Source: Natranaerofaba carboxydovora
GTDB lineage: Bacteria; Bacillota; Natranaerobiia; Natranaerobiales; Natranaerofabaceae
Direction: 5' to 3'
Assembly (NCBI RefSeq): GCF_022539405.1
Contig: NZ_CP054394.1
Coordinates: 64,501-128,500 of the forward strand
DNA: 64,000 nt
This document shows positions 5,767 to 29,019 of this stretch, in pieces. A model generated the notes under the pieces. It did no database searches and had not been told where the DNA came from. It saw only the letters and a list, made by a program, of their open reading frames with translations. The position numbers and the translations under genes were made by a program. Numbering within the stretch: the first letter of the stretch is position 1; every line of letters starts with the position of its first letter.

Positions 5767-5782
5767 AAGGAGGGTAAAAATT

Positions 5783-9107: not shown

Positions 9108-9449
9108 TTAACCACTTTGATTTTCAAGAAAACTTTTTACTGCAGTTTTAAGTTCGGGCAATTTATTTTGAACTACATCCCACACAATCACTAAATCTAT
9201 ATTTGCATAATCATGAATTAAAACATCTCTAAATCCAGCAATTTTACGCCATTCTATATGACTTTTCTTGTTTTTTACTTCATCAGGAAGCTTCTTAACG
9301 GCCTCACCAATCACTTCAAGATTTCTGATTACTGCGTCCTGAGCCATCATAAATGATATAAATTCATCAAAATTTAAATCCTTGGTATATTCTTCTATTC
9401 GATTTATAGAATCAATAATGTCGAGTAAATATGCTTCATGATCACACAT
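9108..9449 (-). CDS. hepT: HEPN toxin, HepT-like (DUF86)
   Basis: This 113-aa all-helical HEPN RNase candidate carries the R-x4-H motif as RDVLIH (Arg74, His79) followed by DY, the HepT signature. Proteins of this family cleave RNA, and their partner MNT enzymes silence them by AMPylation near the active site. It is encoded downstream of the MNT gene, and its start overlaps the MNT stop by 8 bp, so the two are co-translated. The active-site residues are present. Confidence 0.88.
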   Translation of the reverse strand: MCDHEAYLLDIIDSINRIEEYTKDLNFDEFISFMMAQDAVIRNLEVIGEAVKKLPDEVKNKKSHIEWRKIAGFRDVLIHDYANIDLVIVWDVVQNKLPELKTAVKSFLENQSG

Positions 9450-9732
9450 ATTCTACACTCTCCATAATGGTTTTATTATAAGCGGGCTTTATTGATTCTC
9501 TGGTTACTAAATCTATTTCTTTTTCAAAAGTATCTTCCAAAAAAAACTTCAAATCCATAAAATTATCAAATGTTTTGTGCCCCTCCATGAATTCTACTAT
9601 AAAATCTATATCACTTTCTTCATTTTGAGAATCTTTTACATAAGAACCAAACAATCCTATTTTTTTAACTCCGAATTTTTTTAGTTCACTCTTATTTTGT
9701 TTTAGTTTTAATAAAATTTCATCTTTTTTCAT
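9442..9732 (-). CDS. mntA: MNT-type nucleotidyltransferase antitoxin MntA
   Basis: A minimal nucleotidyltransferase of 96 aa from the ATG at 9732, which follows GAGGAGTG. An upstream in-frame TTG gives five more residues but a worse site. The motif GLFGSYVKDSQNEESDIDF is the family G-S-x10-D-x-D signature (Gly29-Ser30, Asp41, Asp43). MntA enzymes AMPylate and neutralise HepT. With hepT it makes a complete two-gene toxin-antitoxin unit between two mobile elements. Confidence 0.88.
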   Translation of the reverse strand: MKKDEILLKLKQNKSELKKFGVKKIGLFGSYVKDSQNEESDIDFIVEFMEGHKTFDNFMDLKFFLEDTFEKEIDLVTRESIKPAYNKTIMESVEYV

Positions 9733-10006
9733 TGAATCACTCCTCAAAATAAATTAAACAAATCAAATACTGTTCGCTAATTTGCAGTATATTTATTATT
9801 TACTACTTCTATATAAGTTATATTTTTCCTCTTGCCCCTACATTATAACCTTTGAAGAGAGTAATAAAATATTTTAGTGCAAAATGCTTTGGTTTTATCA
9901 AATTGAGAAAAATACAAGGGAACTAGGGAACTTTTGGGGTACCAGGCTATAAACAATAACCAAAAGTTGTTCTTTATAATTTAGATTTTACTGTAACTCT
10001 AAATTT
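9733..10006. other. AT-rich spacer upstream of mntA
   Basis: No gene is visible. The TA promoter should be here. An AT-rich region with ATATTTATTATTTACTACTT (9789-9808) is present, but no confident promoter hexamers were assigned. Confidence 0.4.
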
Positions 10007-10192
10007 TTAAAACTCAGTATTATCAATTTGTAAGGCACATGGACCGCAATATATCTTATAATCACTATCGAAATCTAATAAATCTTCGGTTAAGTCAGTT
10101 TGCCAGCACAAAGTTCCACATTTATGGCACTTAATTTGTTTTGTAGCTCTATTTGGCTTGTTTACTGGCAGACTTAAAATGTTTTCGTCGCT
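10007..10192 (-). pseudogene. Zn-ribbon tail in frame after a stop codon
   Basis: Directly after the TAA (10193-10195) of the HTH gene, the same frame stays open for 61 codons. It encodes a Zn-ribbon-like segment with CHKCGTLCW and, about 28 residues later, YCGPC, ending ...NTEF-stop at 10007. The segment has no ATG, GTG or TTG of its own. It may be the C-terminal domain of the HTH protein, cut off by a nonsense mutation. Confidence 0.5.
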
Positions 10193-10810
10193 TTATATTC
10201 TACATTTATGCTCACTATACTTTTTTACTTGATCCTGCCAAGAAACCTGACCTTTAGAATTAATGTATGTATCTAAAGCTATTTTAGGGATAATATACCT
10301 AGTATCTCTTTTAGTGTATAATACTTTTTCGTCTTTTAATAACTGGGATATTTTTGCTGTACTAATTCCTAAATATTTAGAAGCTTCTTTTTTATTTAAT
10401 ACTTCTTTTTCTTCAAGCTTTTTCTCATGTTCCTTAGTTTCAAATTTTTTTGAGTTTTCATTTTTGCTTAATGATTTTGCCATGTTTTCAGCCTTGCTTT
10501 CTCTTACTTTCTGTGTATGTCTTTTAGAATCTTCCGAAGCTACGTTTTCTTTATAGTTATTTATTCCTCCATTTTTAATCCATTCTACAAATTTGTCCCT
10601 TGGTATCTTAATTTGATTACCTATTTTAAAATGTGGGAAAAACTTGCCGTGGTAAACTCTGCACATTTCATAGACGGTATGCGTGCTAACTCTTAAAAAT
10701 TCTGCAGCTTCTTTTACTGTTAAAATGGGAGGTAAGTCAAAATATAAGTCATCATTTTCCTCTGTATAAGGTTCATCTTGAGATTCTTCTACTTCGCCAG
10801 CTAAAAACAC
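10193..10810 (-). CDS. Protein with two excisionase-like HTH domains
   Basis: 205 aa from a GTG at 10810 that follows AGGGGG. Two winged-HTH domains of the excisionase/HTH_17 type are visible: ILTVKEAAEFLRVSTHTVYE at about 29-48, and VLNKKEASKYLGISTAKISQ at about 137-156. A lysine-rich charged linker separates them. It probably binds DNA. Its stop is followed in frame by a Zn-ribbon segment (10007-10192), so the present protein may be shorter than its ancestor. Confidence 0.75.
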   Translation of the reverse strand: MFLAGEVEESQDEPYTEENDDLYFDLPPILTVKEAAEFLRVSTHTVYEMCRVYHGKFFPHFKIGNQIKIPRDKFVEWIKNGGINNYKENVASEDSKRHTQKVRESKAENMAKSLSKNENSKKFETKEHEKKLEEKEVLNKKEASKYLGISTAKISQLLKDEKVLYTKRDTRYIIPKIALDTYINSKGQVSWQDQVKKYSEHKCRI

Positions 10811-13124: not shown

Positions 13125-13928
13125 CAGTTACTGAAAAGAGTGGTTAACTTTCTTGGTCCGCCTCCTGTTGTGAAATGCTTTGGATTTCAAGGGGGGTGGA
13201 TAGGAAATTGGTTTAATTGGAGAGAAAAGTTAAATTCTAATAAAGATATAATATGCGATGATGAACGAGGAAGAGGTTTGATAATAGCGAAAATGTTCTG
13301 TAATAATTATTTTATAATAAAAAAGGCAATAAAGCTTTTTGATTTTAAAATTTGATTTTAAAAGATAATAAAATATAACCAGCCTTGTAAAGGTTTACTT
13401 TATATAGGCTGGTTATTTTATTTTGGAGCCGTATATTATATTTTAAATAACAGTATAATGGTATAATGGTGCCGAAGGTACGTATTATGGAGAACCCACA
13501 CTGGAAAATTTTTTGATAAAGGTCTTTAAAGATTTTACTTTCATGACCTGGATCTATAGTTTGCTTAATGGTGAACAAACTCAATTTGTTCCATTAAAAG
13601 TCTAAGTTTTAATATACCTCTTTTCTACAAAATATTGATAGGACTAAACTTTGATGCAGGAGTAGAGGGAACCTCTAACCTTGCATTTGCAGCTTTTACA
13701 GCTGTTTTTAGAGTTGAAGTACATGTCAAGATTTTCTAAAAATCCAAAAGAAAGTAATATTATGATTTTATAAAGGAGTATTAAAATGAGTGACTTAAAT
13801 TACTAACATGTTTAATTTTTATTCAATGTCAAATGAATAAAAACATTTAATTTCTTACACTATTTGATGTAAATAAAGGTTTGATTTTAAGTTAGAAGTT
13901 AAGCAAATATTATTTTGAAAATTTTACT
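13125..13928. other. Degenerate intergenic DNA
   Basis: No intact gene. It includes the first terminator/att-like repeat (13373-13479). Around 13627-13739 a short open stretch reads LIGLNFDAGVEGTSNLAFAA and then stops, perhaps gene debris. A 71-codon frame at 13140-13355 lacks a ribosome site and recognisable homology. Confidence 0.45.
13373..13479. repeat. Terminator/att-like repeat, copy 1
   Basis: A hairpin ATAACCAGCC / GGCTGGTTAT is followed by a segment nearly identical to 15737-15812 (about four differences in 76 bp). It ends with AATGGTGCCGAAGGT (13465-13479), the first 15 bp of the tRNA-Leu att core, after which similarity stops. It looks like a truncated att remnant of an earlier integration. 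Confidence 0.7.
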
Positions 13929-15705: not shown

Positions 15706-15797
15706 AACCAGCCTGAGTATTTATATCTAGTTTAGAATAAGCTGGTTATTTTATTTTGCAGCTGTATATTATATTTTAAATAACAGTATGATGGTAT
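15706..15797. repeat. Terminator/att-like repeat, copy 3 (left flank of attL)
   Basis: The hairpin AATAACCAGCC...GGCTGGTTATT type (here AGCTGGTTATT) is followed by the sequence shared with copy 1. It leads directly into the full att core at 15798. It may serve as a terminator for the toxin-antitoxin genes to its left. Confidence 0.65.
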
Positions 15798-15852
15798 AAT
15801 GGTGCCGAAGGTGGGATTCGAACCCACACGCCAATGGCACACGATTTTGAGT
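15798..15852. repeat. attL: tRNA-Leu 3' half duplicate
   Basis: A 55-bp stretch identical to 28934-28988, covering CCA, acceptor, T-arm, variable arm and up to the anticodon loop of tRNA-Leu(CAA), minus orientation. Sequence to its right does not complete a tRNA. It marks the left boundary of the integrative element. Confidence 0.93.
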
Positions 15853-16072
15853 TTATTCTAAAAACTTGCCGCCCGCCACCTAGCACGGAAACAGATTTAT
15901 AGGGAATACATAACTTGGCGACCTTATAACTTTATTTATCAGTTATCTATATTTTAGCGTGGTATGTATTGGTAGTCAATAGTTTGATAAAGACATAGTT
16001 TAATAGAGTTAGAAAATATAATTTATTCAATTTGAAGATACAGAAAAGTGCATTTAACCTGACTCAGTTCAA

Positions 16073-16771
16073 TTAATTGATTATATCATACATATATTTA
16101 CTTGTTGAGTTATAAGGTATATATCCTATTCTATAAGATAATAAAATGTTTATATTATTAAAAATTTTAATAAATAACTTATCTTTATTTGTAACTAAAG
16201 CTTTTATCCAAACATTCCTACTAATTAATATGCCTTTTATTTTATCTTTTCCTGACTGAACTTTTCCGTAAGCTTTGTGATTTCCATCAATAATAAAAAA
16301 CGGCAAACCACTTGGATTTAGTAAAGTAAAGTCTCCGCATATAACTGGATCCTCTTTGTTAACACATTTCATTGCATACGTTTTATCTATTTTACTTTCA
16401 TCCATAATTCTCTTTAAAAATTCTTTATCGAATTCTATATTAATCAAATCTTCTTCTATGTTAGATAGTTTTGCTTTAAAAGCTTTCTTATAATCTTCAT
16501 CATTTTTGTTGATTGTTTTTGTGTCTCTATATATAAGTTGGTTAAGCAAGTCAATATTAATTCCAATTACATAACTATCATTTCCATAAAGCTCAAATGG
16601 TAAAGAATATACTTGCTTTCCTAGCTTTGGTGTTTCCTTTCTATGGTTTTTTAATACTGCCTGATATTCTTTAATTATCTTTTTAAAATTAGGGTATTCA
16701 TATTTTAATTGTAGGTCGGCTTCAATATTTGAAGATAATAAATAATTAAAAAAATTTTGTAAGTTGTACAT
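16073..16771 (-). CDS. Unknown protein with a DGNHK motif
   Basis: 232 aa from the ATG at 16771; an upstream in-frame ATG at 16783 adds four residues. I do not recognise the family. Around residue 165 it has PSGLPFFIIDGNHKAYGKV, reminiscent of the D-G-x-H-R loop of ParB/Srx-like nucleotide-binding folds, but no other ParB feature is visible. It is separated from the upstream minus-strand gene by a terminator, so it has its own promoter. It is element cargo near attL. Confidence 0.6.
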   Translation of the reverse strand: MYNLQNFFNYLLSSNIEADLQLKYEYPNFKKIIKEYQAVLKNHRKETPKLGKQVYSLPFELYGNDSYVIGINIDLLNQLIYRDTKTINKNDEDYKKAFKAKLSNIEEDLINIEFDKEFLKRIMDESKIDKTYAMKCVNKEDPVICGDFTLLNPSGLPFFIIDGNHKAYGKVQSGKDKIKGILISRNVWIKALVTNKDKLFIKIFNNINILLSYRIGYIPYNSTSKYMYDIIN

Positions 16772-16861
16772 AATTACCCCCATAATATTTTATATATAAA
16801 TTTATATTCAGTTATTTTAAAAATTATAAATAAAATAATTCTTAAAGTTTAAATTTCTATC

Positions 16862-16890
16862 AAATAAAAAAAGGAGGCAATGCCTCCTGG
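16862..16890 (-). terminator. Intrinsic terminator
   Basis: On the minus strand AGGAGGCATTGCCTCCT is followed by seven T. It ends the transcript of the 193-aa gene (16951-17532). Confidence 0.85.
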
Positions 16891-16950
16891 TATGAATAAA
16901 ATTTAAATTTATGTTATTATCATAAAAATTCCTTAACTATTAAAATGAGA

Positions 16951-17532
16951 TCACTGCTTTTCCTCCATTAGATTTTCGATCATACGTCCTATAGGATCTG
17001 CAATTCTAAGTACGGTATGCCCATTATTACTTTCTATATTGCTACAAAATTTCAAGTATGCTTTTTGTCCAGGATCTACTAATAAAATATGATCTATAAT
17101 AGTTTCTACCCCTTCATTTTTAAATTTGTACATATTTGGTCCCACATGGCTAACATAATACCTTTTTAAATCTTGTTCAAATTCTTTGTTTAATTTAATT
17201 TCTTTTTTGGAAACAGGTGTGATATCCTTGTTTTCTAAAACACAATCTAAAGATTTATTATCTTTTATTAAATCAAATGAAATATCAAAGCCTGCTTCAG
17301 TAAGAATTTCATAAAGGGTGGAGGGACCTGTTCCAGAATAACCTGTTGCTAAGCCACATTTAATTTCCATTCTTTCTTCATCACGACTATATAAAATTAA
17401 AACTGTTTGAACTATATTATATATTTCCTCTTCTTTAATGTGAGCTTTATAAAATAAGTCGAGATGTTCTTTGTTATTTCTAAAAAAACCTATTGCATCA
17501 GAGGAGGTTCCTCCTTTAATAACTAACTCCAT
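16951..17532 (-). CDS. Unknown 193-aa protein
   Basis: The start ATG at 17532 is preceded by AGGAGG. Acidic, soluble, no signal peptide. I recognise no family. A Gly-rich stretch GLATGYSGTGPSTLYEILTE lies near residues 64-83. It stands alone between a terminator and an intergenic region on the minus strand of the element, and may be defence or regulatory cargo. No function is assigned. Confidence 0.6.
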   Translation of the reverse strand: MELVIKGGTSSDAIGFFRNNKEHLDLFYKAHIKEEEIYNIVQTVLILYSRDEERMEIKCGLATGYSGTGPSTLYEILTEAGFDISFDLIKDNKSLDCVLENKDITPVSKKEIKLNKEFEQDLKRYYVSHVGPNMYKFKNEGVETIIDHILLVDPGQKAYLKFCSNIESNNGHTVLRIADPIGRMIENLMEEKQ

Positions 17533-17769
17533 ATTGTTCCTCCTTATAAATTGAGATATTAATATTTATTTACTTATTGTAGAAATATGATAGCATTTAT
17601 TTAATAAATAAAGAGACGATCACAAAATCTTATTTTTGTTTAGTACTATAATTGGGTTGTAACTAAGTTAACAAAAATTTAATTTTTTACTATATAACTT
17701 AAATTTACAATTTTAGTTTAGTAATGTTACTTAAGTTCTTTGAAGAAGCTATAATATGATGTCTCACCA

Positions 17770-18342
17770 TACAACGTAAGGGGGAGAAGGGCGCAAGGAT
17801 ACTTGTTTGAAATACCTCCAGACTTGGCAAGTTATTTAATATCTGTAATTAGATAAAGAAAATTTATTAAATGAGAAAACAAAGCTAAAAAATGAAAAAA
17901 AGAAGAGTGAAGAGATATCTATAGAAGAATTAAGTAATCTTTTGAATAAAGTACTCGGAACACTGAAAAAGAACGGATAGTAAAGGGGCGAATAGGTCAA
18001 GGATTATTTAAAAACAAGTTACTGGCATTATAAGATAAATGTGTGATTTGTGGTTTATCCAAAATAGACTTATTGATTGGTAGTCATATTAAACCTTGGA
18101 GATATAGCAACGATGAAGAAAAATTGGATGAAGATAATGGGTTATTGATGTGTAATGTCCATGACGCCCCTTTTGATAAAGGTTATATTTCATTTGAAGA
18201 TTCAGGAAAGATTATAATTTCTTCAAAACTTAATAAAAAAGATTGTAATTTACTAGGAATAAATGAAAATATAATAATAAAATTACGGCCAGAACAAATC
18301 AAATATATTAAATGGCATCGTGAAAATATATTAAAGAGTTAA
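17770..18342 (+). pseudogene. HNH endonuclease, multiply broken
   Basis: Pieces in different frames line up as one gene: RAQGYLFEIPPDLASYLISV near 17790-17850, a charged linker to about 17980, TEKERIVKGRIGQGLFKNKL at about 17960-18020, an in-frame TAA at 18031, then CVICGLSKIDLLIGSHIKPW and LDEDNGLLMCNVHDAPFDKG. The last part is an HNH_2-type nuclease core. Several frameshifts and one nonsense codon make it inactive. The last intact frame starts at GTG 18043. It is a paralogue of the intact HNH gene next to it. Confidence 0.75.
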
Positions 18343-18392
18343 AATAGTGTAGGGGCGGAAGCTATTATGATCTAAATGAAAAGTTTTATTTT

Positions 18393-19397
18393 TTACACTT
18401 TTTCAAAACAATTAGATTTATGCCAATCCAAATACTTTTTACTCTCAGTTGGTAAATTGAAGAGCAAACTATCATTATCTTTTATGTTCATTAAATTTTT
18501 AGTTGTTTGATCTAAATTGTTCGAGACAATTATAGAGCCGTTGTCTTCAAAAGAAATAAATCCATTATCAAACAGAGCATCATGGGTCACACAAAGTAAT
18601 AACCCATTATTAATATCTAATTTTTCGTGGTTATTTGAATGTGACCAGGGTTTTATATGACTTGCAACTAATAGTCTTTCTTCATCCAGGCCACATAAGC
18701 AGCACTTTTTATATTTATTTAACAATTTTTTTCTAAATACACCTTGTTTCACCCTATTTTTAGTTATGGATTCAATCTCAGGATTGCTTATATATTCTAA
18801 CTTAGACTCTCTAACTTTTGACGTTTCTGTGTTTTCAGGCCAGGAATATATATGATTATCGTAATATAAAACTTCGAAATTGTTTTCAGTCAATAGCTTT
18901 TCTATAAAATCTTCGCTAGAAATATACGGTTCTAATTTCCATTCTCTAAACATATTATATCCCTTATGCCATATCCTTGAGTCAACGCCTTTTAAATTAG
19001 ATACTATTTCATTTTTTTTACTTAATTGAAAAGGAGGCGTAAGCTTTATAAATTTATCAAATATGACAATATTCTTATATTTTCTCTCGCCCCAAAATGC
19101 CATACTTAAATTTTCGTCAACAATTTTTTCGCAAACGTATCCAATTCCATCTATGGCTTGGTAACCATAAGTATCATTAATCCTGAATAATATTAAATCA
19201 TTGGCTTCAATATTTTCATATTGTCTTAAGTTATATTCTCCATCTTTAACTCCCCAGGCTCCTCTTTTTTTTGTTGTATTATTTAAAACCTTTTCTATAG
19301 CTATATCATCATGAGCTTTTCCGTTTACAACTGAATTATTATAGTTTTTTAAGGTTTCATTGTTTGTAACTGGGAAATAAAATACTTTGATAATAAT
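18393..19397 (-). CDS. HNH endonuclease with EVE/PUA-like N-domain
   Basis: The frame is open from 19412, and no ATG, GTG or TTG occurs before an internal ATG at 19103. AAAGGAGGG (19406-19398) sits just before ATT/ATT/ATC codons (19397-19389), so a non-AUG start giving about 334 aa is likely. Residues 1-150 read KVFYFPVTNNETLKNY, KKRGAWGVKDGEYNLRQYEN and DLILFRINDTYGYQAIDGIG, resembling EVE/PUA-like modified-base readers. The C-terminus is an HNH_2 core: CCLCGLDEERLLVASHIKPW, LDINNGLLLCVTHDALFDNG. This fits a type IV-like restriction nuclease. It lies 20 bp after the radical SAM gene. Confidence 0.78.
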   Translation of the reverse strand: MIIKVFYFPVTNNETLKNYNNSVVNGKAHDDIAIEKVLNNTTKKRGAWGVKDGEYNLRQYENIEANDLILFRINDTYGYQAIDGIGYVCEKIVDENLSMAFWGERKYKNIVIFDKFIKLTPPFQLSKKNEIVSNLKGVDSRIWHKGYNMFREWKLEPYISSEDFIEKLLTENNFEVLYYDNHIYSWPENTETSKVRESKLEYISNPEIESITKNRVKQGVFRKKLLNKYKKCCLCGLDEERLLVASHIKPWSHSNNHEKLDINNGLLLCVTHDALFDNGFISFEDNGSIIVSNNLDQTTKNLMNIKDNDSLLFNLPTESKKYLDWHKSNCFEKV

Positions 19398-19416
19398 CCC
19401 TCCTTTATGATATTAT

Positions 19417-20418
19417 CTACAGCTTTATTTTTGTCTTTCTATAGTTAGTTTTTGTATTGCTTTTTAAATCGTTTTCAATGAGACTATCATTTTCTAAGTA
19501 GTCTTTATTGTTATAAAAAAAATTTGTTTTTGAGTTTTTGTTTTTTCTTGGTGCATGTACTGGTTCTACGTAAAATTTCCCTTTGTTTTCTATATGTTCT
19601 TTCAAAATTTGTTTTAGTTTAATAGAGTTAAAGTCATTTTTGTCAAATTTAAACATCTTTTCAGCAGGTATATCTGGACATTTAATATTAAAGTGTTCAC
19701 TATGATAAAAACCAAGGACTGGATCAATATTGAAGTTTTTGTGTTTATTAGGTATTAACTTATTTAATCCTTCAATTTGGTAATAAAAGTTATTATAAGA
19801 ACCATTATTTTGTAAGGCGTAAAATTCATTTGTGTTCAGACCTTTTAAGGATAATAACATCTCGACTTTAATTTGCTTAAAACTATTTAGTAACAAAATA
19901 TCCTCTTCTTTTATTTCACGTTTTCCAATAGTAATTCCATTGGTAAATATCTTTACTTTAAACTTATCATCCGTTTTTAAAAATCTTAAGTTGTCCCTTG
20001 CTAGTTCATTATTTTCAATAATATATTTATCTAACTTATTTAAAAAATTTACTAAAAAATGAAAACGCTCTTTATTTAGTAATGGTTCTCCTCCAACTAT
20101 CTGTAACCCCTGTATTTTAAAGAGTTCTGGATCTTTTTTTGGGGGATTGATTTTTGTAATATATTCTAGATTAGCATGGAGACACTGGCTAAAATACTGT
20201 AAACATTGATCTTCGCTTAACAATTGATAACTATTATTATCATTTGACCAACAAAGTTTACAGTTTAAATTACATTTATCGAAATCTATTCTAAGTTCTC
20301 GCATACTTTTGTATAATTTATTAAATCCAAGTATACATTTTTCAGCGAATTTACAGTTAGTTTTTTTACAAAAATGGCCTGCTGAATTGAAATCATTAGG
20401 AAATTTTAACTCCTGCAT
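19417..20418 (-). CDS. Radical SAM protein
   Basis: 333 aa. The radical SAM cluster motif C-x3-C-x2-C is present as CNLNCKLCW (about residues 49-57), followed by IVGGEPLL (the GGE motif that binds SAM). Four more cysteines precede it (FCKKTNCKFAEKC), suggesting an extra metal site. The C-terminus is Asn/Lys-rich. I do not recognise the substrate class. The adjacent downstream HNH gene follows at 20 bp on the same strand, so they form an operon. The start ATG at 20418 has only a weak ribosome site. Confidence 0.85.
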   Translation of the reverse strand: MQELKFPNDFNSAGHFCKKTNCKFAEKCILGFNKLYKSMRELRIDFDKCNLNCKLCWSNDNNSYQLLSEDQCLQYFSQCLHANLEYITKINPPKKDPELFKIQGLQIVGGEPLLNKERFHFLVNFLNKLDKYIIENNELARDNLRFLKTDDKFKVKIFTNGITIGKREIKEEDILLLNSFKQIKVEMLLSLKGLNTNEFYALQNNGSYNNFYYQIEGLNKLIPNKHKNFNIDPVLGFYHSEHFNIKCPDIPAEKMFKFDKNDFNSIKLKQILKEHIENKGKFYVEPVHAPRKNKNSKTNFFYNNKDYLENDSLIENDLKSNTKTNYRKTKIKL

Positions 20419-20616
20419 TTAACCAACAACCCCTTTTATTAGCTATTTTTTTATTATAACTTACTGAGTAAAGGTAAAAAAGATAATTATATGATATAAA
20501 AAAACTCTTAGTTACAGATCAATTATGTAGTTTTGTATAGAGGATGGTATAAAAATATTTTGGACTTATAAGAAGCTTTGGATTGTAACACTTAATTAGA
20601 CAGTTTTTTTATTTTC

Positions 20617-20749
20617 TCACTAGGAGAGATTTTTGTCAGTTGTGAGGAGCTATAAATGATGAATTCCCCCAGTAGACGAAAGTTTCTCTTTATTGTGAAG
20701 AAATGGGGAGTAGCGTTTTATGTAACAAAAATTTTGCGAAATCTGGTGC
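20617..20749 (+). ncRNA. Conserved intergenic motif, copy A (candidate RNA)
   Basis: Shares ordered blocks with 22935-23083: TCACTAGGAGAGA, TTTGTCAGTT, CCCCAGTAGACGAAAGTT, GGGGAGTAGCGTTTTATGTA, CTGGTGC. CCCC and GGGG can pair as an inner stem, and TCAG with CTGG as an outer stem. No coding potential is apparent. It lies upstream of the immunity-protein genes. Function unknown. Confidence 0.5.
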
Positions 20750-20972
20750 GATTTAAGGAGGGGGTAAATGGTTCATACAATATTTCTTATTAAACTGTAT
20801 AACACAAAGGCAAAAATATATGTTTAATTAAATTTATTTTCAAACTCTTTACCTCCCCACCTTTAAACACCTGCCGATAAAATAGTCTATACAATAAAAA
20901 TATACCTCCTAATCGGAAGTATATTGAAAATTACCTAAAATATGATAAAATTTCCATTAAGGAGGGGGTGAC

Positions 20973-21278
20973 ATGAAACTTGTTATAATAACCTCAATCA
21001 TATTAACTATTCTAATGACAATTCCCACAATCTATTATGACGACATTTTTGAAAGTGATGCTGGATTTATAATGTCAACATTAACTGGGTTCATTGTTAT
21101 AACAGTAATAGTTACAATTTACCTTATTCCTACCCTAGTAGCAGAATATAGAAATCATAGAAATGTAAAAGCAATTTCAGTATTAAACCTCTTTCTAGGA
21201 TGGACTTTCATATTTTGGGTACTAGCTCTTGTTTGGGCTTTTCTAAATAACCAGGAAGAACCTGCTCAAGAAACCTAA
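20973..21278 (+). CDS. Superinfection-immunity-like membrane protein 1
   Basis: 101 aa with three hydrophobic segments. The C-terminal module reads IPTLVAEYRNHRNVKAISVL, then NLFLGWTFIFWVLALVWAFL. This is the LNLFLGWT...WVxALVWA signature of the Imm_superinfect family (T4 Imm-like), small inner-membrane proteins linked to blocking entry of further phage DNA. Good AAGGAGGGGG before the ATG. First of three tandem paralogues; the other two lack its extra N-terminal helix. Confidence 0.8.
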   Translation: MKLVIITSIILTILMTIPTIYYDDIFESDAGFIMSTLTGFIVITVIVTIYLIPTLVAEYRNHRNVKAISVLNLFLGWTFIFWVLALVWAFLNNQEEPAQET

Positions 21279-21303
21279 ACCATTTGCCTATGGAGGGGAT
21301 AAC

Positions 21304-21522
21304 ATGGAAACGATAATGTCTATTATAAGTGCATTAATTATTATAACAATTGCTGTTTTAATTTATTTTGCTCCTGCTTTTGTAGCAGAATATAGAAATC
21401 ATAAAAATGCTAGAGCAATTTCAGTATTAAATCTCTTTTTGGGATGGACATTTGTATTTTGGGTACTGGCTCTTGTTTGGGCTTTTCTCAGTAATCAGGA
21501 AGAATCAACTGAAGAAACCTAA
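21304..21522 (+). CDS. Superinfection-immunity-like membrane protein 2
   Basis: 72 aa, two transmembrane segments, ATG after TATGGAGGGGATAAC. FVAEYRNHKNARAISVLNLF and the following GWTFVFWVLALVWAFL are nearly identical to copy 1. It follows the first copy by 25 bp, in one operon. Confidence 0.8.
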   Translation: METIMSIISALIIITIAVLIYFAPAFVAEYRNHKNARAISVLNLFLGWTFVFWVLALVWAFLSNQEESTEET

Positions 21523-21550
21523 ACATTTACCTATGGAGGGGTGGTATACA

Positions 21551-21751
21551 TTGTTAGACATTATTACATCTGGATTATTTATAATATTCATTTATTTCCT
21601 TCCTACTATATTAGCAGTATCTAGAAAACACAAAAATGCTTATGCTATCTGGCTTTTAAATTTCTTCTTAGGATGGACTTTTATATTTTGGGTATTAGCT
21701 CTTGTTTGGGCTTCCCTCAATAGTCAAAAAGAATCAACAAAAGAAACTTAA
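21551..21751 (+). CDS. Superinfection-immunity-like membrane protein 3
   Basis: 66 aa from a TTG at 21551. The GGAGGGG that serves copy 2 recurs at the same spacing before this TTG, which argues against an ATG at 21532 that would put the ribosome site inside the gene. The body, AVSRKHKNAYAIWLLNFFLG followed by WTFIFWVLALVWASL, is the most diverged of the three. It ends in KESTKET like its neighbours. Confidence 0.75.
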   Translation: MLDIITSGLFIIFIYFLPTILAVSRKHKNAYAIWLLNFFLGWTFIFWVLALVWASLNSQKESTKET

Positions 21752-22378
21752 ATTATTCTCCTATCATCTTTTTTAAAATATCGCCTTATTCTATTTAAAA
21801 ATGTCATAAATTCTGCCCTGCTCGCCCAAGCGTCAGGTCTAAAATGAATAACAGAGTCTCCGTCCCTGGTAAAAACAGTAATAAGACCTAATAATTTTTA
21901 GAGATAACAGGTGAAGACCGAGAAACTGTACCTAAATGGATAAGAGCTATAACTTTTGTGACTTTGGATATAGCTTTTTGATTGCAGGTTGACTATTGAT
22001 GATTTGGTGAACCTGGCTATTGTTAGTGGCGGAGGAGAAAATATATATTTTAGTTTACTTGGGAACAACAGCTTGGCATATTTATTGGTTGTTTATACAT
22101 TGAAATGTATCTCCTATCTTTATTAAAGGATGGGAGATTTTTTATGTTTTTAGATCACCTATTAATTCATATCCTCTCACAATTAAAAGAGTTCATAAAA
22201 ATCTCTAAAAAAGCCTTTTAATAATCTATAAAGGTATAACCATAACCCTCCCTCCCCTCCGAAAATCCAATACAGCCAAATTACTAAAGCCTATTGATAC
22301 ACTCAAATTAATATATTAGAATATTTGTAGAAGTTGGCTAAAATCCAACCTTAAAATTATGCAACAAGGAGGGGTTAT
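21752..22378. other. Intergenic region with a minus-strand fragment
   Basis: On the minus strand, 21748-21897 stays open and reads FTRDGDSVIHFRPDAWASRA and then EFMTFLNRI. This resembles a gene 3' end (SLH-like F-R-P...RAEF pattern), but it has no start. A hairpin ATGTATCTCCTATC...GGATGGGAGAT lies near 22103-22138 and is followed by T-rich DNA. The rest shows nothing recognisable. Confidence 0.35.
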
Positions 22379-22762
22379 TTGGCAAATAAAGTTATTGCTT
22401 ATTTGATTACCGATGGGAAAGTGTCAAAGATTAGTTTAAACAATATGGGTAAAACAAAATACCCAGAAATGGCTGGTAAAAGTGCTTTGATTGTTTGCAT
22501 AACCTTTGAAAAGGAAGAGTCATTTCAGTTAAAAGATGTTGACATTATATCTACGATTTTTGACAATGAAGGAAGATGTGAAATTGACAAAAATCAAAAA
22601 GAAAGACTGAGGATGTTTGTTGAAGAAAATTTGCCTTTTTTTGAAGAGAAAAGTATGGGTGATGGAAATGTAAAGTATAACTATTTTAGTCCAAGACTAA
22701 ACACAAAACAGAAACAGATGCTAAAAGAAAGGATAGTAAAAGACTTTAATAAGACTTTTTAG
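22379..22762 (+). CDS. Unknown 127-aa element protein
   Basis: TTG start at 22379 with AAGGAGGGG nine bases upstream. A soluble, mixed alpha/beta composition without a recognised motif. The C-terminus is basic (KQKQMLKERIVKDFNKTF). Followed by a terminator. It lies between the immunity array and the XRE gene. No function proposed. Confidence 0.65.
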   Translation: MANKVIAYLITDGKVSKISLNNMGKTKYPEMAGKSALIVCITFEKEESFQLKDVDIISTIFDNEGRCEIDKNQKERLRMFVEENLPFFEEKSMGDGNVKYNYFSPRLNTKQKQMLKERIVKDFNKTF

Positions 22763-22812
22763 AGAAAGTTATCAGGATTGTATAAAGAGATCTTTGTTTA
22801 AACATTTTCTCC

Positions 22813-22850
22813 CGCCACCTTTAAGATTTAAGGTGTGCGGAAATTTTTTC
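22813..22850 (+). terminator. Intrinsic terminator
   Basis: Stem CCGCCACCTTTAA / TTAAGGTGTGCGG with a short loop, followed by AAATTTTTTC. About 50 bp after the 127-aa gene stop. Confidence 0.75.
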
Positions 22851-22901
22851 AACTTAGAGTTCCTATAATATGAATTATGAGAACTAAAAAGCTAACGTAG
22901 G

Positions 22902-22933
22902 ACTCCTTAAAAGAAAAGGAGTTTTTTTAATTT
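22902..22933 (+). terminator. Hairpin with T-run
   Basis: ACTCCTT / AAGGAGT-type stem followed by seven T. It lies directly before motif copy B and may end a short transcript or mark that motif's upstream border. Confidence 0.6.
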
Positions 22934-22934
22934 T

Positions 22935-23083
22935 TCACTAGGAGAGAAATTTGCCAGTTATAAAGGGGTTGTGACTGATAGTACCTTTTAGCCGCCCCCC
23001 AGTAGACGGAAGTTAACTTTTTAAATGCTAAAAAACGGGGAGTGGCATTTTATGTACACAGGAAAATTTCTGAGAACTGGTGC
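22935..23083 (+). ncRNA. Conserved intergenic motif, copy B (candidate RNA)
   Basis: Blocks as in copy A: TCACTAGGAGAGA, TTTGCCAGTT, CCCCAGTAGACGGAAGTT, GGGGAGTGGCATTTTATGTA, AACTGGTGC. Here CCAGTT and AACTGG pair perfectly (outer stem) and GCC-CCCC pairs with GGGG-GGC (inner stem). Lies about 60 bp before the XRE gene. Function unknown. Confidence 0.5.
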
Positions 23084-23145
23084 ACTTACATAGGGTGGGC
23101 GGGGCCTAATTGGCCTAGCTGAAGTATTTTCTAAGGAGGAGTAGG

Positions 23146-23469
23146 ATGAAAAAAAACATGGGAAAAAGGATTAGAATGGAAAGGGAAAGACTAAAAATGA
23201 ACAGAAAAAAATTTTCAGAGCATACAGGACTATCAGAATATTACATAGGTCAAATAGAAAGAGGAGAAAGAAAAATGAGTATAGACAGCCTGCTTAATAT
23301 ATCAAACTGTCTTCACCTTTCAGCAGATTATATTCTAAAGGGTAAAGAAAGAACAGAAGAGAAAAAACATGAAAACGAAATATACCAGCTGCTTAATAGA
23401 TGTGAAGATAAAGACTTAGAATTAATCAAAGATTTAGTAAAGCTTATTTTACCCTATCTAAAAAATTAA
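23146..23469 (+). CDS. XRE-family HTH regulator
   Basis: 107 aa. The HTH_3 domain spans residues 7-62 (RIRMERERLKMNRKKFSEHT, GLSEYYIGQIERGERKMSID). A helical charged tail probably mediates dimerisation. ATG after AAGGAGGAG. It is the only clear repressor-type regulator in the element and is likely to control excision, replication or cargo genes. A terminator hairpin follows. Confidence 0.88.
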   Translation: MKKNMGKRIRMERERLKMNRKKFSEHTGLSEYYIGQIERGERKMSIDSLLNISNCLHLSADYILKGKERTEEKKHENEIYQLLNRCEDKDLELIKDLVKLILPYLKN

Positions 23470-23471
23470 AT

Positions 23472-23506
23472 CCCCCCGCCCCCTCTTTTACGGATAAGGG
23501 GGGGCG
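23472..23506 (+). terminator. GC-rich hairpin after the XRE gene
   Basis: CGCCCCC pairs with GGGGGCG around CTTTTACGGATA. No strong T-run directly follows (AGAAAATTT), so termination is probable but not certain. Confidence 0.55.
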
Positions 23507-23835
23507 AGAAAATTTAAACTCATTACCCCTTAATTTTTAATATACAAACAAATAAAATAGCATCTTCTTTTTTAAAATTCTTTAGTATCTTCTATATTAT
23601 TATCTTACTTTAATTAACATCAATGTACGTTATTCCCTGCTTTAGGTTTGGGCAGGGATTTTTATATTGCTTTTAGTGAAGATAAACCCTGAGTTCATTA
23701 TACCTATTATTTAAATGAGATAAAAATCGGTGCGAAAAATTAATTATTTACTAAACAACTATAAGCCTGTTTCGTACATGAATTATAGGAAGCGATAAAG
23801 GATAAATAAAATTTCCCCTAAGGAGGTCTTAAGTC
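23507..23835. other. Leader region of the primase-helicase gene
   Basis: No gene is seen. It holds a weak hairpin TCCCTGC...GCAGGGA (about 23634-23659) followed by TTTTTATATT, which could act as a terminator or attenuator ahead of the primase. Confidence 0.4.
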
Positions 23836-25857
23836 ATGAAAAAATATGTAAAAGACTACTTGAATTCTGGTTATTCAATAATTCCAATAAATCCAAAGTC
23901 TAAAACTCCAATTATTGAATGGAAAGAATATCAAAACAAAAGACCATCTGAAGAGGAACTTATAAAATGGTGGAGAAAGTGGCCAAATGCTAATATAGGT
24001 ATTGTTACTGGCAAAATAAGCGGAATATTTGTACTTGATGTAGATGGAAAAGAAGGAGAAAAATCTTTAGACGGATATGAACTACCAGATACTGCAGTAG
24101 CAGAAACTGGTGGTGGAGGTAGACATTATTTCTTTGAACACCCAGGATTTATATGTAAAAACTTTACAGGCATATTACCCAATGTTGATATTAGAGGAGA
24201 TGGTGGCTATATTGTAGCACCCCCCAGCCTCCATGAAAGCGGTAATAAGTATAAATGGTTAAATAAATCTCAAATTAATAAAGCACCTGAGTGGTTATTA
24301 GAAAAACTAAACTCAGTTAGTAAAACTTACAGAAAAATAACTGCAGAAGATTTTGCTAAAGAAATCAAGGAAGGGGCAAGAAACAATGAGCTTACAAGTA
24401 TAGCTGGTTCCCTTTTAGGGCATGGTGTATCTTTGGAAGAAACTTTAACTATACTGAAGTCAATAAATCAAACAAATTGCTGCCCCCCACTTCCAGAAAA
24501 AGAAGTGGAGAAAATAGCTGAAAGCATAGCAAAAAGAGAATATGGAAATGATCATATGCCTGTAACAAAAAACAACTATAACTATGATGTTTCCAGGTTT
24601 TTTGATGGAAGTACGTTTATTCCTAAAAAAGTTGCTAATGAAATAACCACTAACTACAGTATTATTAAAGCATACGGCAAATTATACTATTATCAAGATG
24701 GAATATACAGAGAGGGCGGGGAAGAATTAATTAGAAGAAAAGTTAGAGAATTACTAGACGATAAAGCAAAAAATAACCGAGTCAATGAAGTGTTACAACA
24801 TATAAAAGACACCAGTAATCAAGTTAGTGATTTTCACCCCCACCCTGAATATATCAATGTAACAAATGGAAGACTTAACTGGCATAAAGACAATTTAGAA
24901 GAACACAATCCAGAAATATTTGAACTTATGCAGCTACCAGTTCAATACAATCCAGAAGCTGACTGTCCTAGATTTAAAGGATTTTTAAATGAAGTATTAG
25001 ATGACGAAGTTATTTCGCTAATACAAGAAATGTTTGGGCTAACCATCGCCCCAGATATTACTGAAAACGGCAGCAAAAAATTTCACAAGATGTTCATACT
25101 AACAGGCGAAGGAAGAAATGGTAAATCAGTCTTATTATCGACATTAGAAACATTACTGGGTAGAGATAACGTAAGCAATATATCACTACAGGAACTAGAA
25201 CACAATAGATTTAAAAAAGCGGACTTACTAGGTAAACTTGCAAATATATTTGGTGATATAGATAGTAAGTCACTAAACTCCACAAGTGCTATTAAAACAC
25301 TTACGGGAGGCGATACAATAGCAGGTGAAAGGAAAAATGAGCACCACTTCTACTTTAAGAATTATGCGGAGCTAATTTTCTCAGCCAATGAACTTCCAAA
25401 AGCCAATGATAAAAGCAAAGCTCTTTACAAGAGATTAATAATTGTACCATTTGAAAGAACATTTAGTGAAAACGAAGCAGATAAAAATCTTCTTAGTAAA
25501 CTTACTACAGATGAAGAACTAAGCGGAATACTAAACTGGGCTATAGAAGGCAGGAAAAGATTATTTCAAAAGGGCAGCTTTACTATTTCACACCAGGTGG
25601 AGGCTTTATTAGAAAAATATAAACAAAAAAACAATAACGCACTAGAATTCTTGAATAAATTCGTTGTAGAAGACACAGATGGAATAATAAGTAAAAGCGA
25701 TTTATACCAAAAATACCATACCTGGTGTGAAGAAAACAATATAATTCCAGAATCACAGCAAAGTTTTAATCAAACTATCAAAGAAAATTTCAATGCAAAA
25801 GAGTATAAACCTGGAAGTATTAGACTTTGGAGAGGGATAGCTATGAGTGAAATATAA
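23836..25857 (+). CDS. Prim-Pol / D5-type primase-helicase (P4 family)
   Basis: 673 aa, the replication protein of the element. Residues 1-165 form the bifunctional primase/polymerase domain (GYSIIPINPKSKTPI, VTGKISGIFVLDVDG, TGGGGRHYFF, RGDGGYIVAPPS). A PriCT-like segment follows (ITAEDFAKEIKEGARNNELT). The D5-N and SF3-type helicase regions have Walker A LTGEGRNGKS, Walker B-like LGKLANIFGDID and FSANELPKANDKSKALYKRL. The C-terminus is a DNA-binding tail. ATG after AAGGAGG. Such proteins start replication at an origin near their own gene, and repeats lie directly downstream. Confidence 0.93.
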   Translation: MKKYVKDYLNSGYSIIPINPKSKTPIIEWKEYQNKRPSEEELIKWWRKWPNANIGIVTGKISGIFVLDVDGKEGEKSLDGYELPDTAVAETGGGGRHYFFEHPGFICKNFTGILPNVDIRGDGGYIVAPPSLHESGNKYKWLNKSQINKAPEWLLEKLNSVSKTYRKITAEDFAKEIKEGARNNELTSIAGSLLGHGVSLEETLTILKSINQTNCCPPLPEKEVEKIAESIAKREYGNDHMPVTKNNYNYDVSRFFDGSTFIPKKVANEITTNYSIIKAYGKLYYYQDGIYREGGEELIRRKVRELLDDKAKNNRVNEVLQHIKDTSNQVSDFHPHPEYINVTNGRLNWHKDNLEEHNPEIFELMQLPVQYNPEADCPRFKGFLNEVLDDEVISLIQEMFGLTIAPDITENGSKKFHKMFILTGEGRNGKSVLLSTLETLLGRDNVSNISLQELEHNRFKKADLLGKLANIFGDIDSKSLNSTSAIKTLTGGDTIAGERKNEHHFYFKNYAELIFSANELPKANDKSKALYKRLIIVPFERTFSENEADKNLLSKLTTDEELSGILNWAIEGRKRLFQKGSFTISHQVEALLEKYKQKNNNALEFLNKFVVEDTDGIISKSDLYQKYHTWCEENNIIPESQQSFNQTIKENFNAKEYKPGSIRLWRGIAMSEI

Positions 25858-25861
25858 ATAC

Positions 25862-26092
25862 ACCAGGTTTTTACCAGGATTGCACCAAGTTTGTTACCAG
25901 GTTTTTGTAGTAGTTACCTATATGACTCTAGGAATACCAGGGTTTATAAAATCTTAAGTGAAAAAGTAAAAGTATAATAATATATATCATAAAAAGTTAT
26001 TATGATAAAACCCTGGTAAAGTTGGAGTTATGAAGGTGTTAAGTATAAAAAGTCTGGTACTAATCCTGGGCTAAACCTGGTATAACCCTGGG
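25862..26092. repeat. Candidate replication origin (iteron array)
   Basis: Four ACCAGG hexamers (25862, 25873, 25896, 25936) precede a roughly 70-bp A+T-rich core (about 25942-26010). At least four CCTGG(T/G) units in the opposite orientation follow (from 26012, 26065, 26076, 26087), plus TCTGGT near 26053. Inverted iteron sets around an AT-rich stretch right after an initiator gene match origin architecture. Confidence 0.65.
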
Positions 26093-26101
26093 AATAAACC
26101 T

Positions 26102-26140
26102 CCCCCCTCCACTCGAAAGTGGGCGGGGGCGGGTTTTATT
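26102..26140 (+). terminator. GC-rich terminator
   Basis: CCCCCCTCCACT / AGTGGGCGGGGG stem with a CGAA loop, then GCGGGTTTTATTT. Ends transcription coming from the primase and origin region. Confidence 0.75.
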
Positions 26141-26648
26141 TATGATCCTGAGCTTCTTCAATAATCTTATCTTCAAACTCAGAATTTAAAATTTGTTTGC
26201 AGTATTTAATTAATAATTATCTTATACATAACCAATCCAAACTATGACAAGAAAAATAAAGAATTGGATAGAGATAAATAGGTATTTCCCCCGCCTGCCA
26301 TAAAAGGATAGAGTTAGCTTAGGAGTAGGGAGTGTTGGATTAACTAAGAAGGAAAATGTGGGAAGGATTCTAGAGTTATCGCCCCCCACTTTTGCTGGCG
26401 GGTGCGAATAGGTAGTATACAAATTATGCAGGGAGTATGCCCTGTTTTTTTAGTTAAATCAAAGGTTGCCTTAGTTTATCTGCTTTTCTAAAAAAAGAAA
26501 AAATTAACAGGGATAATTTGTTGATGTATAGAATAATAATATTGGTTATTTATAAGAGTTTTAAATTGGGAGGTGATATTACAAATAGTATGATGTTAAA
26601 GCAAATATTCCATCAAGTAATACTTTACTTACATGGAGGGAAAAACAT
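26141..26648. other. Gene-free stretch in the element
   Basis: A 66-codon minus-strand frame (26222-26422) has no ribosome site and is probably spurious. A hairpin CGCCCCCCACTTTTGCTGGCG-like GC island lies near 26380-26405. The promoter for the following gene should be near 26520-26560. Confidence 0.4.
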
Positions 26649-27134
26649 ATGTCAGGAAAGAAAATTATATTATTAGTATCTGTTTTTGTAGTAATTTTCG
26701 CTGTTGCTGTTGCAGGGTTTACTGCATTTTTTATTTCAATGCAAACATCTACTCCTCAAACTCAAGGAGGATCACAAGTTAGTAATGAAAGTGATAATGA
26801 TACAGAAGTATCAGCATCTGAAAAAATAATTGGAGTTTGGCGGGGCGAAGAAGTTGATATCGAACTTTTAGAATTTTATGATGATAATAATTTTCAGTTA
26901 TATTACGAAAATGAAGAAGGAGGGGGCACTTACTTAGAAGGTAACTATTCTATGAGTGGAGATAGCAGGTTGCGTATCGAGCTTGATGATGGAAGAGTAG
27001 AAGGAAAGACAGGAGATATTGATTTAAGAAGTGTTTCAAGTCAATATACGATTGATATAAATTTAGAAGAAGATACATTAGAATTTTTAGATGAAGTTGA
27101 TTTAGCAGCAAATACAGTTTGGAAAAGAGAGTAA
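26649..27134 (+). CDS. Signal-anchored secreted protein
   Basis: 161 aa. Residues 4-30 form a hydrophobic signal anchor (IILLVSVFVVIFAVAVAGFT), followed by a Ser/Thr/Gln/Asp-rich linker. The domain beginning IIGVWRGEEVDIELLEFYDD has the beta-rich pattern of small lipocalin-like proteins (DUF5640-type). No lipobox Cys. It sits outside the membrane as an accessory gene of the element. The role is unknown. Confidence 0.65.
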   Translation: MSGKKIILLVSVFVVIFAVAVAGFTAFFISMQTSTPQTQGGSQVSNESDNDTEVSASEKIIGVWRGEEVDIELLEFYDDNNFQLYYENEEGGGTYLEGNYSMSGDSRLRIELDDGRVEGKTGDIDLRSVSSQYTIDINLEEDTLEFLDEVDLAANTVWKRE

Positions 27135-27282
27135 AGTATTAAAAGCCAATGGGGATACCTTTGTATGCTGTCCGCCCTTAATAGCGGGGGCGAATATATT
27201 TTTAAACTAAACTTATTAATTATTGTTAAATATCCCTGCAAGAGTGATGATGGGTATAAAAGAGGCTCTTTAGTTAATAAAG

Positions 27283-27375
27283 TCCACCAGGGTTATGATA
27301 TGCTCCTCCTTATGATAAACAGTTTTTCTTATTTAAACTGTCTACCACAAGGGGAGCATATCAAAATATTGGTGG
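27283..27375. repeat. Nested inverted repeat
   Basis: CCACCA + 6 nt + TGATATGCTCC on the left mirrors GGAGCATATCA + 6 nt + TGGTGG on the right, with both blocks perfect (outer 6 bp, inner 11 bp: 27296-27306 and 27353-27363). An inner stem ACAGTTT / AAACTGT sits in the loop. No coding content. It could be a small hairpin element, a regulatory RNA or a cruciform binding site. Confidence 0.7.
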
Positions 27376-27503
27376 GCTAATATTTATATTACGATTGTAG
27401 AGAACGATAATGAGAAAGTTTGAGACATTAGAATCTTATGTTTATTATATGGCTTTAATTAAACCAGCTACCACTTTGCTTTAGGTGTGGATGGGCGGGG
27501 ACT

Positions 27504-27770
27504 TCATTTAGATTTCTCCACATCTTCTATTATTTCATCCATAAGTTTAGGGGTGACAATCTGTTTCACATTATTTAATTCTCTGATCAATATATCTATG
27601 TCTTCTCCGAAAGTATTAAATAATATATATTTCATATCTTCCTGCTTGACCCTGCCAGCTTTTCCCATAGCTAACACAGACATTATTATTTCAAAAGGTT
27701 TGTAGTTGTTGTTTTGGTAATGCTTTTTTAAAGTTTTACAAATAGTTTTTATATTATAAGTTTTAGGCAT
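27504..27770 (-). CDS. Unknown 88-aa protein
   Basis: ATG at 27770 after AGGAGTG. A small, helical protein (YNIKTICKTLKKHYQNNNYK, KPFEIIMSVLAMGKAGRVKQ) of a type common next to integrases. No family is recognised. It is co-directional with the integrase and 58 bp downstream of it, so an accessory role in recombination or regulation is possible but not shown. Confidence 0.6.
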   Translation of the reverse strand: MPKTYNIKTICKTLKKHYQNNNYKPFEIIMSVLAMGKAGRVKQEDMKYILFNTFGEDIDILIRELNNVKQIVTPKLMDEIIEDVEKSK

Positions 27771-27827
27771 ATTACACTCCTCCTTTGTTAACTTAATAAA
27801 ATTTTGTGTTAAACTTTATTAATTGGG

Positions 27828-28748
27828 TTAAATATCGAGATGATTTAAAGGATTATATTTTTCGTTTTGTTCTTTTAGATTAGTCCCATAAATGTTCACA
27901 TAGTTTTTTGATATGCTAATGTCCTCGTGTCGGAGAAGACATTGCAAGGTAAAGGCATCACATCCTTGTTTTACTAAATTAATTGCAAAGGTGTGGCGAA
28001 ATCTATGGCAATTTACTGATAGATCTTTAAAATTCATAGCTTCGTTTAACCTTTTAAAGATACTTTGAGCTCCATACTTACTAAGCTGCTTATTATTTTT
28101 GTCTACAAATATAAATTCAGATACTTCACCAAAATATTGCTTACAGTAGCTTTTATAATATGCGATTTCTTTTTGAAGTTTTTGGGTGAGGGGGAGGGTC
28201 ACAGCTTTATCTCTTTTGCCGTAAATGTAAATAGTACCTTTTTCAAAATCTATATCCTCCCATTTAGCATTTCTAAACTCATTTAATCTAGCTCCAGTAC
28301 CCAACAAATAAAGTAATAAAACATAATTTCTCAGATTAGTAAAAGAGTTTCTACGTTTAATTGACCTTTTATAATAATTTAGCATTTGTCTAATGTGGTA
28401 ATCTGAAAAAGGTTTTTTCTGACTTTTAAATTTTATTGGTTTAATATCTTTAATCGGGTTATTTTTAGGGTCAATAATATCTTCTTTTTCTAAATAGTTA
28501 AAGAAAACTTTTAGGTGTTTTAGTTTTGTATTGAGGGTGGCGGGGGCGTTTTTTCTTTCTTTTTTGCAATAAGATAAAAATGATTTAATCAAATTAGGCT
28601 TAACATCTTGTACATTTAAAACTTCATTTTCCTCACAAAACTTCATAAATTCATCTAAGTACTTCCTGTAATGGTTTACCGACCACTCTGCTAGATTTTG
28701 AAGCTCCTTTTCATCTAAAAACTCATCAGCAGCAAATCTTAACAACAT
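27828..28748 (-). CDS. int: Tyrosine recombinase / integrase
   Basis: 306 aa from the ATG at 28748. A GTG twelve bases upstream sits on the ribosome site itself and is less likely. An N-terminal SAM-like core-binding domain (residues 1-100) precedes the catalytic domain. The catalytic domain has Arg in GTGARLNEFRNAKWEDID, Lys in YIYGKRDKAVTLPL, H-x-x-R in CHRFRHTFAINL, His in LLRHEDISI and the nucleophile in KNYVNIYG. It lies next to attR and tRNA-Leu, as expected for the enzyme that integrates this element. Confidence 0.93.
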   Translation of the reverse strand: MLLRFAADEFLDEKELQNLAEWSVNHYRKYLDEFMKFCEENEVLNVQDVKPNLIKSFLSYCKKERKNAPATLNTKLKHLKVFFNYLEKEDIIDPKNNPIKDIKPIKFKSQKKPFSDYHIRQMLNYYKRSIKRRNSFTNLRNYVLLLYLLGTGARLNEFRNAKWEDIDFEKGTIYIYGKRDKAVTLPLTQKLQKEIAYYKSYCKQYFGEVSEFIFVDKNNKQLSKYGAQSIFKRLNEAMNFKDLSVNCHRFRHTFAINLVKQGCDAFTLQCLLRHEDISISKNYVNIYGTNLKEQNEKYNPLNHLDI

Positions 28749-28933
28749 AAAAAAGACCACTCTCCTTTTTTAAAAATTAGGGAAGTGGTCGCCATAGTTA
28801 TGTGTCTCCCGAAAGAGTTTTTGTGGTCATTCAAAACCACATGACTCCAATTAGGGATCATTTTGTTTATGGAAGTCTATTCCTATTCGTGAACCCCTGT
28901 GTGGGCGGGGGTGAAATTATTTTAGAAATAAAA

Positions 28934-28988
28934 AATGGTGCCGAAGGTGGGATTCGAACCCACACGCCAATGGCACACGATTTTGAGT
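28934..28988. repeat. attR: within tRNA-Leu(CAA)
   Basis: The 55-bp partner of 15798-15852. It overlaps the 3' half of the intact tRNA gene, so integration keeps the tRNA functional. Confidence 0.93.
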
Positions 28989-29019
28989 CGTGCGTGTCTG
29001 CCAGTTCCACCACTTCGGC
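28936..29019 (-). tRNA. tRNA-Leu(CAA)
   Basis: Class II tRNA. Acceptor GCCGAAG / CTTCGGC, D-arm GGTGGAACTGGCAGAC, anticodon stem CACGA / TCGTG with loop CTCAAAA (anticodon CAA), a variable arm, T-arm GTGGGTTCGAATCCCAC and an encoded CCA. Target of the 13-kb element. Confidence 0.95.

Follow-up and report, generated by a model that had tools for sequence, protein, structure and literature searches.

A probable type IV restriction endonuclease with a predicted non-AUG start, encoded beside a divergent radical SAM gene in a tRNA-Leu integrative element of Natranaerofaba carboxydovora

The closest solved HNH domain to the one described here belongs to VcaM4I, an EVE-HNH modification-dependent endonuclease with the same domain order, in which the catalytic residues H224, D250 and D254 were mutated and tested, N241 is the moniker N, and removal of the sensor and linker leaves a toxic, non-specific nuclease (PMC7897488). 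For the sensor, the closest solved relative is the N-domain of McrB from Thermococcus gammatolerans (TgMcrB), a YTH domain (PUA superfamily) that senses 6mA (PMC7897488) and is fused to the GTPase of the McrBC complex whereas the sensor at our locus is fused to an HNH nuclease. We analyzed a stretch of 64,000 nucleotides (the window), bases 64501-128500 of the single-contig, 3.26 Mb genome of N. carboxydovora, for which an earlier note made from the letters of the DNA had pointed to a radical SAM gene followed by an HNH nuclease gene within an integrative element.

The element spans 13.2 kb (15798-28988) and carries at its two ends a perfectly matching 55-nt direct repeat (15798-15852 and 28934-28988), a copy of the tRNA-Leu 3' end. 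Its landmarks are:

15798-15852, unstranded: attL, the 55-nt perfect copy of the tRNA-Leu 3' end, from repeat comparison
28934-28988, unstranded: attR, the same 55 nt inside tRNA-Leu (28936-29019), from the repeat and the tRNA location
27828-28760, minus strand: tyrosine-type integrase (PF00589, E=4.9e-32)
23836-25857, plus strand: primase/helicase (several PHROG DNA primase families, best E=5.8e-114)
23146-23469, plus strand: XRE-type regulator

With an integrase, att repeats at a tRNA gene, a primase and a regulator in about 13 kb, the element appears to be a phage-satellite-like integrative island, and the repeats together with the integrase bear out the integrative element of the earlier note. 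The GC content is 24-28% in its left part (16-21 kb) and 31-34% in the rest, and the radical SAM/HNH pair therefore lies in a distinct cargo block.

Several further features were observed in or near the element. Two AT-rich cargo genes lie beside attL (16073-17532, minus strand), the first with a DGNHK motif and the second matching phrog_19231. At 17953-18342 on the plus strand is an HNH gene broken by a stop codon, about 50% identical to the intact one in the catalytic domain and convergent with it. At 20973-21751 lies a tandem array of three paralogous genes for small membrane proteins that carry Imm_superinfect (PF14373) domains, and these superinfection-immunity-like genes are flanked by diverged direct repeats (families D8 and D12) at 20602-20724 and 22920-23056. 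At 13404-13479, 2.3 kb outside the element, there is a 76-nt near-copy of the sequence at attL (15737-15812). It takes in the final bases of the tRNA repeat and is apparently the trace of an older or tandem integration.

The HNH gene and its surroundings comprise the following features, all on the minus strand:

18393-19391 (stop codon included): sensor-HNH nuclease, 332 aa from ATC, from the open frame and domain matches
18940-19391: YTH/EVE-like (PUA superfamily) sensor domain, N-terminal, borders approximate, from profile comparisons
18396-18794: HNH_2 catalytic domain, residues 200-332, from PF13391 and the VcaM4I alignment
19389-19391: ATC, the likeliest start of the HNH gene (alternative, ATT at 19392-19394), from the 7-nt spacing and the alignment of homologue starts
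19399-19405: AAGGAGG, the ribosome-binding site of the HNH gene, read from the sequence

As the earlier note had stated, the HNH frame (ending at 18393) is open back to 19412; the first ATG, GTG or TTG in it is at 19103, from which only 236 aa would be made. After the radical SAM stop codon TAG (19419-19417), the junction continues with AAGGAGG (19405-19399) and then G ATT ATT ATC AAA; the sequence reads GTAG..ATAAAGGAGGGATTATTATCAAAGTATTT. The ribosome-binding site is 1 nt from the first ATT, 4 nt from the second and 7 nt from the ATC (19391-19389), this last being the usual spacing, and the distance from the radical SAM stop is 19 nt to the first ATT and 25 nt to the ATC. When homologues are aligned, their start codons fall at or beside this ATC or the AAA that follows it: the GTG-started protein of relative locus L070, 'MNLFYFTASN', aligns with 'IKVFYFPVTN' of the window protein, those of L071 and L053 (ATG) start one residue later than the L070 column, and the haloarchaeal homologues about two residues earlier. 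A sensor profile built without the query likewise begins to match at the residue directly after the triple isoleucine (III) of the window protein. Because the profile match begins there and the Met starts of homologues align at or beside the same place, we conclude that the true start is, by prediction, the ATC or the ATT before it, which upholds the non-AUG start behind a ribosome site proposed earlier. AUC and AUU are both listed start codons of table 11. Pipelines that allow ATG, GTG or TTG alone would start the nuclease at an internal ATG and lose most of the sensor, and since VcaM4I becomes toxic and non-specific when it lacks sensor and linker, the true start matters for cloning and expression.

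The N-terminal extension gained from this start is, judged by profile comparison, a real domain of the EVE/YTH type of the PUA superfamily, in agreement with the EVE/PUA-like domain suggested before. When the N-terminal 183 residues were used as a lone query against plasmids, only weak matches were returned (best E=0.02; haloarchaeal proteins and a Peribacillus HNH protein), which when aligned have in common the pattern WG..G..N, gD.vL.y, W along the domain; a second search of plasmids brought in more members of the family. Against a profile built from nine homologues, with the query left out, the window protein scored 40.3 bits (E=2.5e-11 within the test set) from residue 7 on, compared with 12.6 bits for the best of 2000 shuffles of the N-terminal 200 residues, and a profile of haloarchaeal proteins only gave the same picture (38.3 bits). 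When viral sequences were scanned with an alignment of the sensor, no match was returned. The best Pfam match of the haloarchaeal homologues is EVE, just below the curated cut-off, and the family profile (A11) matched the TgMcrB N-domain in the PDB (6p0f and 6p0g, E=1.7e-10; 6ut5, E=2.6e-9). Two tryptophans conserved in the sensor family align with TgMcrB and could form part of an aromatic cage. An AlphaFold model of the HNH protein from its single sequence failed (pLDDT 35), so that sequence profiles are the basis for the sensor-HNH fold.

Relatives carry the same sensor joined to other types of HNH domain or to proteins annotated as restriction endonucleases. In haloarchaea (L054, L057, L058, L060-L065) the sensor is homologous along its length and is found in sensor-HNH proteins, in sensor-restriction-endonuclease proteins and standing alone, with other nuclease types than in the window protein or none. 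One stand-alone sensor, on a Salinigranum plasmid (L059, 7967-19751), lies among QueC, FolE, QueE, two TGT-like proteins, a BREX-like ATPase and an HNH protein; this cluster resembles those for 7-deazaguanine DNA modification, and its sensor is possibly a reader for 7-deazaguanine DNA.

The HNH nuclease called in the earlier note is confirmed by a match to PF13391 (HNH_2) near the C-terminal end of the frame (E=1.3e-13). This part also matches VcaM4I (PDB 6yex) at E=3.6e-25, residues 200-331 lying on VcaM4I 179-308, and when counted along the ungapped stretch, H245, N262, D271 and D275 of the window protein fall on H224, N241, D250 and D254. The phmmer alignment with VcaM4I covers 179-308 only, the window sensor having no sequence match to the VcaM4I EVE domain (residues 1-147). 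VcaM4I reads 5mC and 5hmC; the window sensor is nearer to the YTH-type domain of archaeal McrB than to the EVE domain of that enzyme. The window protein has a sensor, a linker and a nuclease arranged as in known modification-dependent endonucleases. The scanned proteins of the element, including the radical SAM and HNH proteins, gave no match to methyltransferase families. The locus has three of the marks of a type IV EVE/YTH-HNH endonuclease, a PUA-superfamily sensor, an HNH domain with an intact active site, and no cognate methyltransferase gene. Based on the homology of the sensor, the alignment of the catalytic residues with VcaM4I and the alignment of start codons, the HNH gene probably encodes a type IV (modification-dependent) restriction endonuclease with a non-AUG start that is carried as cargo by the tRNA-Leu element, an assignment supported by sequence, domain homology, catalytic residues, att repeats and gene order and matching the type IV role thought likely before. 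A classical restriction-modification system was considered and rejected, given that no methyltransferase match was obtained in the element and that a modified-base sensor would cut self-modified DNA.

In the mechanism we propose, translation would start from the AUC (or the adjacent AUU) behind the strong ribosome-binding site, 25 nt past the radical SAM stop. On incoming DNA, the YTH/EVE-like N-domain would flip out a modified base and receive it in an aromatic pocket, after which the HNH domain, acting as a dimer, would cut nearby. Most likely the nuclease would in this way cut incoming DNA that has a modified base, as VcaM4I does; m6A as the base read is a guess from TgMcrB. The host genome has its own 5mC (C5) and N6-adenine methyltransferase families, and the sensor must for this reason be context- or base-selective. 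Because an AUC or AUU start stands behind a strong ribosome site 25 nt past the upstream stop, expression of the nuclease is probably low and may hinge on the radical SAM gene being translated, the weak start codon after the upstream stop presumably holding the level low. Both genes would be anti-phage-type cargo of the 13.2 kb satellite-like element in the tRNA-Leu gene.

The ATC may instead have arisen by decay of an ATG; the gene could then be poorly expressed or dying. It is a single base away from ATG, homologues have ATG or GTG at this place, and the broken second HNH gene adjoins on the opposite strand. However, the remaining frame is intact, all catalytic residues and the strong ribosome-binding site are retained, and AUC and AUU count among the table 11 starts, and it seems doubtful to us that mutation of an ATG to ATC has left a decaying nuclease gene from which little or no full-length protein is produced.

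The gene upstream of the type IV candidate has these features, again on the minus strand, with the motifs read from the sequence:

19417-20418: divergent radical SAM protein, 333 aa
20251-20274: CNLNCKLC cluster motif (CX3CX2C, residues 49-56), followed by W57
20083-20094: GGEP motif, residues 109-112

A radical SAM protein is present as first described, with its CNLNCKLCW and GGEP motifs, and it is divergent. It is single-copy in its genome and is absent from the 42 own-genome Radical_SAM matches at 1e-5, its score against Pfam Radical_SAM being 20.2 bits (E=7.4e-4), below the curated 29.5 bits. The best named families, in both NCBIfam and PADLOC, are bacterial viperins (NF038283, 26.2 bits against a cut-off of 180; pVip, 28.8 bits), and the likeness is confined to the cluster-to-GGEP stretch, residues 47-136. 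A viperin was rejected on the NF038283 score, and QueE of the 7-deazaguanine pathway (13.9 bits, cut-off 260.1), the N-terminal twitch radical SAM family NF033640 (16.2 bits, cut-off 170) and MoaA (score far below the cut-off) were rejected likewise. An AlphaFold model made from an alignment with distant phage radical SAM relatives had a pLDDT of 50, and its best fold matches were radical SAM enzymes, none with E<0.001, the alignment itself being one of radical SAM proteins.

Relatives of the radical SAM protein were sought in several collections. No relatives were found by tblastn against phages and plasmids or in two scans of genome contigs, viral contigs had generic twitch-type radical SAMs only, 398 genomes of the phylum gave only generic matches near 1e-4, and 113 further genomes had none beyond generic similarity. 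The collection scans were made by short peptide patterns, the genome sample was of one phylum, and the searches were run without a positive control. The second genome-contig scan used a self-written alignment of motif fragments forcing CNL[NK]C[KR]LC; scan queries A4, A5 and A7 were alignments with self-written short motif variants, which are steering devices and not evidence. We take the radical SAM protein to be a separate enzyme acting on small molecules or nucleotides, its contribution being unproven.

The earlier note had joined the two genes, from their order, into a possible modification/restriction or anti-phage pair, and had named a lack of co-occurrence in other genomes as refuting the link. 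At 15 relative loci with the sensor domain or HNH protein we looked for ORFs of radical SAM type, having both CX3CX2C and a GGE-like motif, and found a single, ordinary QueE, in a haloarchaeal 7-deazaguanine cluster; the search in other genomes gave no second example of the pair. Given the limited scope of the searches for radical SAM relatives, which were run without a positive control, co-function of the two proteins is unproven rather than excluded. A modification/restriction pair is awkward, since the modified-base sensor would target DNA that its partner had modified. What stands of the proposed pair is the HNH protein as a likely type IV restriction enzyme; the two-gene co-function is not supported by these results. 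The genes could be unrelated cargo that are neighbours by chance, the radical SAM protein having its own role or being a stray, as would fit the lack of co-occurrence at the examined loci, the variable cargo that satellites carry, and the presence in this element of superinfection-immunity-like genes and a broken HNH gene. We give this explanation a little less than an even chance, as the tight spacing and the ribosome site just past the upstream stop suggest co-translation and the relatives also keep a near upstream partner.

That partner is MazG-like. In all four bacterial relatives that have the sensor on an HNH protein, a MazG-like gene is located close upstream on the same strand, at about 15-60 nt. 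These two-gene units of a MazG-like gene and a sensor(YTH/EVE-like)-HNH gene are:

L053 (Peribacillus plasmid): 3664-4882
L070 (genome): 8625-9966
L071 (genome): 8829-10200
L077 (viral contig): 4618-6005

PF12643 is present in the MazG-like genes of L070 and L071. The L053, L070 and L077 proteins are 42-73% identical to L071, so the relatives are not four independent events. They resemble the window pair in the homologous N-terminal sensor on the HNH protein and the small gene directly upstream, but differ in that the upstream gene is MazG-like, not radical SAM, and the HNH domain is of another type. The radical SAM gene occupies the upstream slot that a MazG-like nucleotide pyrophosphohydrolase fills in relatives, a parallel in position that is suggestive only. 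Our literature search found no paper joining MazG, the EVE domain and HNH, and in a review of EVE domains, which noted a MutT neighbour of SauUSI homologues, we found nothing on MazG (PMC7641849). The pairing in four of four bacterial relatives suggests, as a testable idea, that nucleotide-pool enzymes may accompany modification-dependent nucleases.

Applied to the window pair, this parallel could make the two genes one defence unit, in which the radical SAM enzyme, replacing the MazG-like partner, would alter nucleotides or DNA, for instance by creating or removing a modified nucleotide, and the state so produced would be the one on which the sensor-HNH protein acts. The shared strand, the 25-nt gap with the HNH ribosome site directly after the radical SAM stop, and the placement of both genes within a single AT-rich cargo block are consistent with such a unit, as are the MazG-like gene in the upstream slot of L053, L070, L071 and L077 and the viperins as best family matches, albeit far below the cut-off. 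We nevertheless consider it unlikely: the pair has no second example, the four MazG-linked relatives share ancestry and have a different HNH domain, and the viperin match, at 26.2 bits against 180, spans some 85-90 generic residues. Still less likely, in our estimate, is the general form of this idea, that type IV nucleases of the sensor-HNH kind keep an upstream slot reserved for a nucleotide-acting enzyme, taken here by an orphan radical SAM protein to form a new two-gene defence coupling radical chemistry on nucleotides or DNA to modified-base-dependent cleavage. Were the radical SAM gene functionally tied to the nuclease, radical chemistry would have a new role in defence.

Three other features were observed elsewhere in the window. 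Outside the element, at 38428-40629 on the minus strand, a 733-aa protein has an N6_Mtase domain (78.5 bits) and is possibly a combined restriction-modification enzyme. A HepT-like/nucleotidyltransferase pair at 9108-9747 (minus strand) is likely a toxin-antitoxin module, and pieces of a group II intron are located at 57980-58275 (plus strand).
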